Assembly (NCBI RefSeq): GCF_013391695.1
Contig: NZ_JACBGH010000001.1
Coordinates: 186,001 to 250,000, forward strand
DNA: 64,000 bases
Direction: 5' to 3'
DNA from: Thiomicrorhabdus cannonii
Lineage (GTDB): Bacteria > Pseudomonadota > Gammaproteobacteria > Thiomicrospirales > Thiomicrospiraceae
The position numbers were made by a program, and so were the translations under genes. Of this stretch, positions 11,236 to 13,848 are shown piece after piece. The stretch's first letter is position 1, and the number at the start of each line of letters is the position of its first letter. The notes under the pieces are model-generated. The model was not told the origin of the DNA. It made no database searches and saw only the letters and a program-made list of their open reading frames with translations.

Positions 11236-12471
11236 TTAAACCTGTTTTCTCACACTGATCCATAATAGGGCCGCGACAAGCCACATCAAGCCTTGCGCCC
11301 ACGCCATCCATTGCAGGTTGGCATGCACCAGCGGTACGACCAATGCCGCCACCAATCCCGCCGTTCCCATCTGAAACAGACTCTGCACCGACGAGGCCAG
11401 ACCACGCCGGCTTGGCAGACAATCCAGCGCCACAATGCTCAACCCGGGATTCGCCAGCGCATAGCCCACCGCATAAAGCACAATCGGCCCCACCACCCAG
11501 AGCGCTTCCGGCTGCCACCCGGCCTGTTCAAACGCAATATTGGACACCACTGCAAACAAGCCCACTAACAAAGCGCCGTTTATCACCGCCTCCATACTGA
11601 AACGATTGGCCAAGCGGTGTGAAAAGAACGAACCCAGCAGGATCCCCGACACGACGGGCACAAAGAAGACCCAGAAGTCCTGCTCCTGAAGGTGCAAGTG
11701 GTCAAAAATCAGACTGGTCGAGCCGGCCACGTACACAAAAAAACCGCCGACCAACAACCCTTGCGCCATCACCAGACGCAAAAACTGCGGGTGCCGGGCA
11801 CTTTGCCAATAAGCCTTGGCAATCGCTCCCGGATGAATCGACTGCACATGCTCCGTTGCCTGGGTTTCACCGACGTGACGCCACATCATCCACCCTATCA
11901 CAATCGCATAAGCACCCAAAAAATAGAAAATCGAGCGCCAGCCGCTGTGCACTTCCAGCCAGCCACCGATAATCGGCGCGATGGCCGGTGCCGCGGTAAA
12001 CAGCATCATCACCAAGGCCATCGCCTTTTGCGCCTCCTGTTTGGGAAACACATCGCGCACCATCGCCCGGCTGGCCACCACACTGCCGGCCGCCATAACC
12101 CCTTGCAGCAGTCGCCCCCAGAAAAGCTGGTCGTAACTTTCCGCCAAGGCGCACAGCAGACTGGCCAAAAAATACCCCAGCAAGCTCCACAGAATAATGC
12201 GGCGGCGCCCCCACTTGTCGGCCATCGGCCCCCAAAAGAGCGTAGCCAATGCAAACGCCCCCAAATAAACCGCCAGTGTTTGGGTGAGCAGTTCACGTGA
12301 AGCCATCAGCTCGCGCTCAATCGCCGGAAATGATGGCAAATAGGTATCGATGCTGAAAGGCGCCAGCATGCTGATAAACGCCACAACCAAAATCAACAGG
12401 CCGGGTCGCAATGGGGAAGGGTTTGAAAATGTCACCGAGCGTCTCAAACAGATACATGGAGAGCTGTGCAC
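11236..12471 (-). CDS. MFS multidrug exporter, Bcr/CflA family
   Basis: A 411-residue 12-TM major facilitator. Family blocks are MLAPFSIDTYLPSFP in TM1, GPMADKWGRRRI (the loop 2-3 signature), GRLLQGVMAAGSVVASRAMV, RDVFPK and PIIGGWL, all typical of the Bcr/CflA drug-export subfamily. The substrate is unknown. The start is uncertain: a GTG at 12471, or a GTG at 12435 after the weak RBS-like TTTGAGAC. The 12471 start lies inside the left arm of a long palindromic element (12454-12622), and TM1 residues PGLLIL are encoded by a copy of the interspersed repeat. It is divergent from ald. Confidence 0.88.
   Translation of the reverse strand: MHSSPCICLRRSVTFSNPSPLRPGLLILVVAFISMLAPFSIDTYLPSFPAIERELMASRELLTQTLAVYLGAFALATLFWGPMADKWGRRRIILWSLLGYFLASLLCALAESYDQLFWGRLLQGVMAAGSVVASRAMVRDVFPKQEAQKAMALVMMLFTAAPAIAPIIGGWLEVHSGWRSIFYFLGAYAIVIGWMMWRHVGETQATEHVQSIHPGAIAKAYWQSARHPQFLRLVMAQGLLVGGFFVYVAGSTSLIFDHLHLQEQDFWVFFVPVVSGILLGSFFSHRLANRFSMEAVINGALLVGLFAVVSNIAFEQAGWQPEALWVVGPIVLYAVGYALANPGLSIVALDCLPSRRGLASSVQSLFQMGTAGLVAALVVPLVHANLQWMAWAQGLMWLVAALLWISVRKQV
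12389..12407 (+). repeat. Interspersed 20-bp repeat, copy 3 (inside the MFS gene)
   Basis: AAAATCAACAGGCCGGGTC carries the exact 13-mer at 12394-12406, opposite in orientation to the gene. On the gene strand it encodes RPGLLIL at the start of TM1. Confidence 0.85.
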
Positions 12472-12622
12472 GAGATAGATACACGATTAAAAAGGGCCAA
12501 AATCCGTCTGATTTTTGTTGAAAACTTGCTAATAGCTAGCTATTAGCTGCGTTTTCCGCCGCAATCAGCCAAATTTTGCTTCATTTTTTCTTCGCGCCCT
12601 ACTCGTGCAAAGCTCTCAAATG
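12454..12622. repeat. Long imperfect palindromic element (~169 bp)
   Basis: Two ~84-nt arms are inverted copies of each other: shared blocks outward from the centre are GCTAATAGC, GAAAAC, CTGATT, CAAAAT, a short A-run, TGCACGAG and AGAGCT. The centre is a perfect 20-bp palindrome, GCTAATAGCTAGCTATTAGC (12528-12547). The left arm overlaps the putative start codon of the MFS gene; the right arm ends ~110 nt before ald. It could be a MITE-like mobile palindrome, a long RNA hairpin in the MFS 5' leader, or an operator region. Confidence 0.75.
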
Positions 12623-12732
12623 GAAAAAACGTGCGCGGTTATCTCCGCCGAATGGCGATGGATTTAGTATAAACTAGATGTTGCTTTGTCTGGCGTCATT
12701 TCCCCTACCGCAACCGTGCAAGGAGGCAACAC

Positions 12733-13848
12733 GTGATCATAGGCGTGCCCAAAGAGATCAAAAACAACGAATTCCGCGTCGGTCTGATCCCCTCCAGTGT
12801 CCGCGAACTGGTCGCGCACGGCCATCGCGTCTTGGTCGAAACCCAAGCCGCGGCCGGCATCGGCCTTGACGACACCGATTATCAGCAGGCCGGTGCGACG
12901 TTGGTTGACTCCGCCGCAGAGATTTTTGCCCGCGCCGAACTGATCGTTAAAGTGAAAGAACCGCAACCCCATGAAATCGCCCTGTTGCGCCCCAACCAAG
13001 TGCTGTTCACCTACCTGCATCTGGCGGCCGATCCGCAGCAGACACAAGCGTTGCTTGACAGCCAGGCCATCTGCATCGCCTACGAAACCGTTGAAGACCC
13101 GCATGGACGCCTCCCCCTGCTTGCCCCCATGTCGGAAGTGGCCGGCAAACTCGCCGTGCAGGCCGGCGCACATTTTCTGCAAAAATCGCAAGGCGGCCGC
13201 GGCATTCTGCTGGGTGGGGCCGCGGGGGTAGCCTCCGGCAAGGTGGTCATTATCGGAGCGGGCACCGTCGGCCGCCACGCCGCACTGATGGCGGTCGGCC
13301 TGCAGGCGGATACCGTGGTGCTCGACACCAATCTGAATGCCTTGCACGCCTTGGAAGCGCAGTTCGGCAATCGCCTACAAACCCTTTATTCCAACCGCGA
13401 CAATCTCGAACAGCAACTGCTGCAGGCCGATTTGGTCATTGGCGCGGCGCTGATTCCCGGCGCCAGCGCGCCTAAACTAATTACCGCAGAACACATCCGC
13501 CACATGAAAACAGGGGCAGTGATTGTCGATGTGGCCATCGATCAGGGCGGCTGCGCCGAAACCTCGCGCCCGACCAGTCATGCCGAACCCACCTATACCG
13601 TTGATGGGGTGATCCATTACTGTGTGAGCAATATGCCCGGGGCCGTGCCGCATACGTCGGCTTATGCCCTAAACCACGCCACCCTGCCTTACATCCTGGC
13701 CCTGGCCGACAAGGGTTATCAGAAAGCCCTGCTGGAGGATCCGCATTTCAGAAAAGGCCTGAATGTCTGCTGCGGTCAACTCACCCATCCCGGCGTAGCC
13801 CAGAGCCTTGGGTTGGATTCTATCAATCCAGAAATAGTGCTCGCATAA
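12733..13848 (+). CDS. ald: Alanine dehydrogenase
   Basis: A 371-residue NAD-dependent L-alanine dehydrogenase (alanine to pyruvate and ammonia, reversible, cytoplasmic). It begins MIIGVPKEIKNNEFRVGL; the substrate region KVKEPQPHE (catalytic Lys) and TYLHLAAD are present, the Rossmann motif is VIIGAGTVGRHAA, and DVAIDQGGCAETSRPTSH and SNMPGAVPHTSA follow the family. Length is normal. The start is GTG at 12733 with AAGGAGG 7 nt upstream. Five bases separate it from the next gene, so they share a transcript. Confidence 0.95.
   Translation: MIIGVPKEIKNNEFRVGLIPSSVRELVAHGHRVLVETQAAAGIGLDDTDYQQAGATLVDSAAEIFARAELIVKVKEPQPHEIALLRPNQVLFTYLHLAADPQQTQALLDSQAICIAYETVEDPHGRLPLLAPMSEVAGKLAVQAGAHFLQKSQGGRGILLGGAAGVASGKVVIIGAGTVGRHAALMAVGLQADTVVLDTNLNALHALEAQFGNRLQTLYSNRDNLEQQLLQADLVIGAALIPGASAPKLITAEHIRHMKTGAVIVDVAIDQGGCAETSRPTSHAEPTYTVDGVIHYCVSNMPGAVPHTSAYALNHATLPYILALADKGYQKALLEDPHFRKGLNVCCGQLTHPGVAQSLGLDSINPEIVLA

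Follow-up and report, generated by a model that had tools for sequence, protein, structure and literature searches.

The imperfect palindrome upstream of an exporter gene in the window, the whole 64,000-nucleotide stretch of Thiomicrorhabdus cannonii DNA analysed here, is very probably (roughly 0.93) a non-autonomous transposon, a type II MITE belonging to a family of the Thiomicrorhabdus group. The family is new and ordinary in kind, and it is spread through this group of sulfur-oxidising bacteria. An earlier note on this DNA had raised the idea of a mobile, MITE-like palindrome, which is supported by scattered copies, 5-bp target-site duplications, an insertion sequence (IS) with matching ends and an orthologous locus that lacks the element.

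The palindrome and its family

The element is a near-full-length palindrome of 159 bp (12459–12617), non-coding and well below 500 bp, with terminal inverted repeats. It was assigned to the minus strand, which yields the better-folding RNA and is also the direction of exporter transcription. Alignment of 12459–12617 to its own reverse complement gave 116 matches in 164 columns and a score of 61, compared to a mean of 1.2 (sd = 7.3; max. = 31) for 1000 dinucleotide shuffles. The palindrome is thus real and far above chance. The earlier note had described an imperfect palindrome of ~169 bp (12454–12622), whose long arms match inverted over most of their length around a perfect 20-bp central palindrome. 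The alignment confirms the long arms, and the central 20 bp, GCTAATAGCTAGCTATTAGC (12528–12547), are indeed perfectly palindromic, but the inverted repeat is limited to 12459–12617. The 5 bp flanking it on either side form a direct repeat, not an inverted one, and represent the two halves of the target-site duplication: ACATG on the left (12454–12458) and AAATG on the right (12618–12622), identical at 4/5 positions, with the length of 5 bp taken from the rule of the family. The left terminal inverted repeat, GAGAGCTGTGCACGAG (12459–12474; 16 bp), differs at one position from the family end GAGASCTTTGCACGAG, and its right counterpart is CTCGTGCAAAGCTCTC (12602–12617; 16 bp). These outer arms are 94% complementary in an ungapped search.

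In a 53-copy alignment, the AATAGC and GCTATT blocks flanking the two middle bases of the central palindrome were at least 90% conserved. A terminator scan identified 2 terminator-like sites in the region, where 0.7 would be expected; one of them, on the plus strand, is the central palindrome. No open reading frame (ORF) of at least 60 aa was found inside the 159 bp, and a search of Rfam with the element returned a single match at E up to 1, which at 12.2 bits lies below the gathering score of 40. The RNA hairpin foreseen in the earlier note held up, as the element with its flanks folds strongly on both strands (z = −3.82 for the plus strand, 12430–12650; z = −4.48 for the minus strand, 12400–12660).

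The sequence is not unique to the window. BLASTN of the 169 bp against the host genome returned 20 pieces, counting the window copy and inverted self-matches. Allowing up to 2 mismatches, the end GAGASCTTTGCACGAG occurs at 16 forward and 16 reverse sites in the host, while the reversed control occurs at 1 and 0. Pairing these ends by eye gave 13 two-ended copies of 159–224 bp (ten of 159–162 bp, the others of 196, 222, and 224 bp). Two further ends may form a 41-bp pair, and three with up to 1 mismatch stayed unpaired. Among 58 genomes including the host, 27 had a match to the element. Of the 26 matches in the 57 other genomes, one (G050) is doubtful, being short and at a locus without any family end. 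Nine genomes of the same genus had no BLAST match (G003, G011, G014, G015, G018, G020, G024, G026, and G031). Family ends with up to 1 mismatch numbered 401 in G016, 189 in G012, 151 in G019, and 104 in G004, with none for the reversed pattern in these four genomes. The copies nearest to the window copy are 91% identical to it and lie in another genome, G025, at loci that have neither the exporter nor its neighbour ald. A search of plasmids with the element gave no match. Two matches of the end sequence to viral contigs were discarded, since they were single ends without a partner, as expected by chance. In G016 (two contigs, 2.7 Mb), the 401 ends correspond to roughly 200 copies if most are paired.

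Target-site duplications were analysed in 84 copies, a non-random sample drawn from the best BLAST hits and from chosen stretches. We kept two-ended copies of 157–165 bp with up to 4 mismatches per end and up to 6 in all, leaving out shorter and longer variants. An exact 5-bp flanking duplication was present in 38/84 copies, and a further 19 matched at 4 of 5 positions. Exact 6-bp repeats were found in 0/84 copies and exact 4-bp repeats in 8/84. The exact 5-bp duplications are 87% A+T. The window copy represents an insertion that is old or has decayed slightly. By rough, ATG-only ORF calls, 0/84 copies fall within an ORF of at least 90 aa, and their flanking genes are codirectional in 41 cases, divergent in 22, convergent in 7, and unclassed in 14; the other adjacent ORF pairs at the same loci, called in the same way, are codirectional in 53 cases, divergent in 14, and convergent in 16.

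These properties resemble those of other bacterial MITEs, which, in the accessible text of one article, are likewise short, non-coding and intergenic, with inverted ends, target duplications, strong RNA hairpins and size variants (PMC10969869). Here, by comparison, nearly the whole 159 bp forms one palindrome, and neither the family nor its termini were found named in that text. MITEAba12 of Acinetobacter (111–114 bp) was linked to its IS by common ends and matching duplications, and duplications flank 40% of its 90 copies, close to the 38/84 found here; it differs in its 9-bp duplications and GGCTTTGTTGC-type ends, as given in some rows of an IS table, whereas the present family has 5 bp and other ends (available portions of PMC6382973). 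QMITE1 and QMITE2 of Coxiella are likewise MITEs of Gammaproteobacteria, and many of their copies are truncated or short, but the QMITE2 duplications given in a table of the source measure 7–9 bp as opposed to 5 bp (available part of PMC5896051). None of the literature matches listed for Thiomicrospira, Thiomicrorhabdus, Hydrogenovibrio, or IS5-family MITEs was a paper on this family, in a search whose coverage excluded most subscription journals. For this bacterial group, without a MITE paper among the matches listed, the present analysis defines a MITE family, its ends and the length of its duplications, together with an IS that is plausible as the parent.

A candidate parent insertion sequence

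Beside one family end in G017, we found a 586-bp element that has these ends and a shortened transposase frame. When this frame was used as the query against 62 family genomes, 10 had matches, several of them weak or partial. Eight of the loci hold ISs of 1244–1264 bp with family-type ends (L186, L187, L190, L195, L196, L200, L203, and L205). Around the match, open frames of 337–346 aa are present in L186, L187, L190, L195, and L200, while the other three are broken. The IS ends resemble the MITE ends over about 12–18 bp (elements in G007, G029, G081, and G077); beyond this, no similarity was seen by eye. A MITE that has only its termini in common with the parent IS is classed as type II in the accessible text of PMC10969869, and the confinement of the similarity to the first 12–18 bp places the present family in this class.

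The parent transposase scores 261.7 and 261 bits on NF033581 (IS5 family), against a curated cut-off of 140, and is a PF01609 protein with DUF772 and DDE_Tnp_1 domains; its IS is thus placed in the IS5 family by an IS5-type DDE transposase. Some IS5 groups follow a 4-bp duplication rule. Nine parent-type loci were inspected for duplications, namely the eight full-size elements and the shortened L185. Judging the flanks by eye, three of them have exact 5-bp duplications, consistent with the MITE (AATAA at L200, AAGCT at L203, and AAGAT at L205). From these sequences, the ~1.25-kb IS5-family element of related genomes is the likely parent of the MITE.

Some points speak against the MITE account: the duplication of the window copy matches at only 4/5 positions, the other six parent-type loci have no exact 5-bp duplication, and the host genome had no match to the parent transposase in either search. 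From the last point, the window copy is probably stranded. Host contig C16 does carry a different PF01609 transposase, as a broken frame that lacks family ends. In G016, neither search found a match to the parent transposase, and G019 retains transposase remnants only; both genomes are likely to have undergone bursts followed by transposase loss. Since the number of family ends ranges from none found to 401 per genome, the family might be used as an indicator of transposon bursts. In the proposed course of events, an IS5-family transposase would have cut at the ends of the element and pasted it between ald and the MFS gene in this lineage, 23 bp upstream of the probable start of the exporter. 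Later loss of the transposase, or its absence from the outset, would have left the copy fixed.

Other candidates for the parent were rejected. Among PF01609 transposases in 8 genomes, the transposase was flanked by paired family ends at 0/25 loci, and none of these genomes was later found to have an intact parent copy. IS701 transposases, searched in 12 genomes, gave 21 hits, all at the PF01609 places of G016. We also chose 40 stretches around ends that appeared unpaired among the matches listed, several of which proved to be ordinary pairs; in 19 of the 40, no ORF of at least 80 aa was the parent transposase. One locus (L136) has, by eye, an IS3-like orfA-type frame, and the same place holds a remnant of the parent.

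Pairing between the arms and strand asymmetry

The 53-copy alignment (52 distinct sequences, window copy included) was used to analyse base pairing across the family. A 45-pair structure had 93.5% of its cells paired, and 23 pairs had changed on both sides, in 106 such cells. These values were reached by 0/500 shuffles, and slid controls were 35–49% paired. Because the structure derives from this very alignment, some of its excess over the slid controls is to be expected. In a palindrome, compensatory change may arise from arm-to-arm conversion as well as from selection.

A comparison of the two strands is more informative. As RNA, the minus strand of the family folds better in 82/84 copies. 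One-sided changes of Watson–Crick pairs, counted on the minus strand over 50 consensus pairs and a FastTree tree, gave 100 G-U and 41 A-C, with 31 pairs leaning towards G-U and 5 towards A-C. Outside the 16-bp ends, the counts were 59 and 28. An initial count of 143:47 was dropped because its pairs had been chosen on the minus-strand fold; the 50 pairs used instead are common to both strands. On terminal branches, the ratio of G-U to A-C was 79:33, a G-U share of 0.71 (bootstrap 0.62–0.78), compared to 0.48 expected from 25 unpaired columns.

This asymmetry hints at, but does not prove, a constraint at the RNA level on one strand. The copies of many species would then keep the RNA hairpin of one strand, tolerating G-U and avoiding A-C, and the MITE would make, or be kept for, an RNA of its own, which we consider unlikely. 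A related reading, in which the element is an RNA gene on a mobile body whose own minus-strand hairpin RNA is kept by selection, appears rather improbable. It would account for the better folding of the minus strand and for the excess of G-U, which has the same direction in both host transcription directions (25:14 and 18:6). However, a broader set of unpaired columns raises the expected share to ~0.54 and shrinks the excess, and distinct pair-by-type changes number only 50 for G-U versus 35 for A-C. On terminal branches, the host (9:7) and G019 (8:7) show a weak signal. It stands at 7:2 in G016 and at 55:17 in all other genomes, and thus comes mostly from copies outside these three. The better folding of one strand could in part reflect a founder effect, and a promoter scan of the region found no promoter-like site. 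A comparison of transcribed and antisense folding in the 41 codirectional contexts revealed no difference (p = 0.83).

If the constraint were real, the hairpin RNA could act, for example, as a substrate of RNase III or as a small RNA affecting copy maintenance or neighbouring genes. Small RNAs have been reported from the Coxiella QMITEs (accessible text of PMC10969869). The strand-specific signal offers a concrete case for asking whether the hairpins of bacterial MITEs are preserved at the RNA level or only at that of the DNA.

The exporter locus and variant copies

The gene next to the window copy encodes a Bcr/CflA family efflux MFS transporter (11236–12435, minus strand; TIGR00710, 236 bits, cut-off 200.9). 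Its divergent neighbour is the alanine dehydrogenase gene ald (12733–13848, plus strand; TIGR00518). On the ald side, 50 bp past the element, a −10-like TATAAA was seen by eye at 12668–12673, and the zzn3 locus described below has a similar stretch. The insertion leaves this sequence intact; the promoter scan reported no promoter there. In the earlier note, the left arm of the palindrome was thought to overlap the exporter start. This applies only to the longest ORF, which begins at GTG 12471 inside the left terminal repeat. Homologous N-termini (MAPPSALL.. in Thiomicrorhabdus sp. zzn3, MKTALSPF.. in Hydrogenovibrio sp. SC-1) match best to a start at GTG 12435–12433, 23 bp outside the element and, by eye, with GAGA six bases upstream. 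The exporter therefore probably starts at GTG 12435, and the GTG 12471 start is a longest-ORF artefact.

The genome of Thiomicrorhabdus sp. zzn3 (G005) has the same exporter/ald pair, also divergent; this was the sole orthologous pair available for comparison. No family end lies near this locus among the matches listed, and the element is absent from its intergenic sequence, which has diverged too far to reveal where precisely the insertion took place. As judged from this orthologue, the window element was inserted here and does not represent a leader conserved with the exporter.

The earlier note had also suggested a regulatory leader. A long hairpin, either evolved or co-opted for the purpose, would then control the exporter around the site of its initiation. 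The position of the element directly upstream of the likely start and the fold of the exporter-sense strand, the better of the two, agree with this. In addition, 32/79 flanking gene starts lie within 50 nt of an element, compared to 22.1 expected under uniform placement, a proximity that rests on rough ATG-only ORF calls and carries no significance test. However, the same element adjoins many other genes, in both orientations (21 and 20 of the 41 codirectional contexts), and is missing from the zzn3 orthologue. A purpose-built leader is not supported by these observations, and leader control in any form seems quite improbable; the element is probably not a dedicated regulator of the exporter.

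An incidental effect of the transposon on exporter expression is possible, given its location directly upstream of the likely start codon. With this start 23 bp outside the element, a transcript would begin within the element or cross all of it, so that the hairpin is probably part of the 5′ leader of the exporter mRNA. The promoter would lie inside or beyond the element, the mRNA would contain part or all of the long 5′ hairpin, and the ribosome-binding site would be left outside the base of the hairpin. Such a hairpin could alter mRNA stability, for example through cutting by RNase III, and the element could put distance between the gene and its promoter.

The Correia/NEMIS elements of Neisseria, which have TA duplications and ends unlike those of the present family, offer a precedent for an effect on an exporter. 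In the accessible text of PMC10969869, this MITE is described upstream of an efflux operon, with a transcript hairpin that is cut by RNase III. The element analysed here likewise lies upstream of an exporter, which it may affect.

The high copy number, the mostly intergenic placement, the palindromic form with compensatory pairing and the very short versions of 32–43 bp would also fit an extragenic palindrome of the REP/BIME kind, mobilised by a RAYT transposase (single-strand Y1). This origin is highly improbable and is largely refuted by the 5-bp target duplications, which are not expected from RAYT movement, and by the IS with matching ends, both of which point to DDE transposition.

Several copies depart from the usual 159 bp. 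Five loci in G010, G016, and G019 (L175, L176, L177, L178, and L179) are palindromes of ~32–43 bp, barely more than two facing ends. They look like centre-deleted elements, and no clear duplications were seen by eye. Two host copies, L040 (C4, ~46 kb; 224 bp) and L041 (C3, ~63 kb; 222 bp), have an insert near the right end that contains a small stem (CTCGGCTCTACAGCCGAG). An inserted stretch of the CCCTCA(A/G)GGGGTACTTACG type is common to copies of two species (L067, L069, and L071 in G025 and G030), which apparently form a distinct subfamily. In G012, contigs C25 and C189 (L165 and L166) end in or just past the same 126-bp sequence, which starts with a family end and is possibly another, larger derivative.
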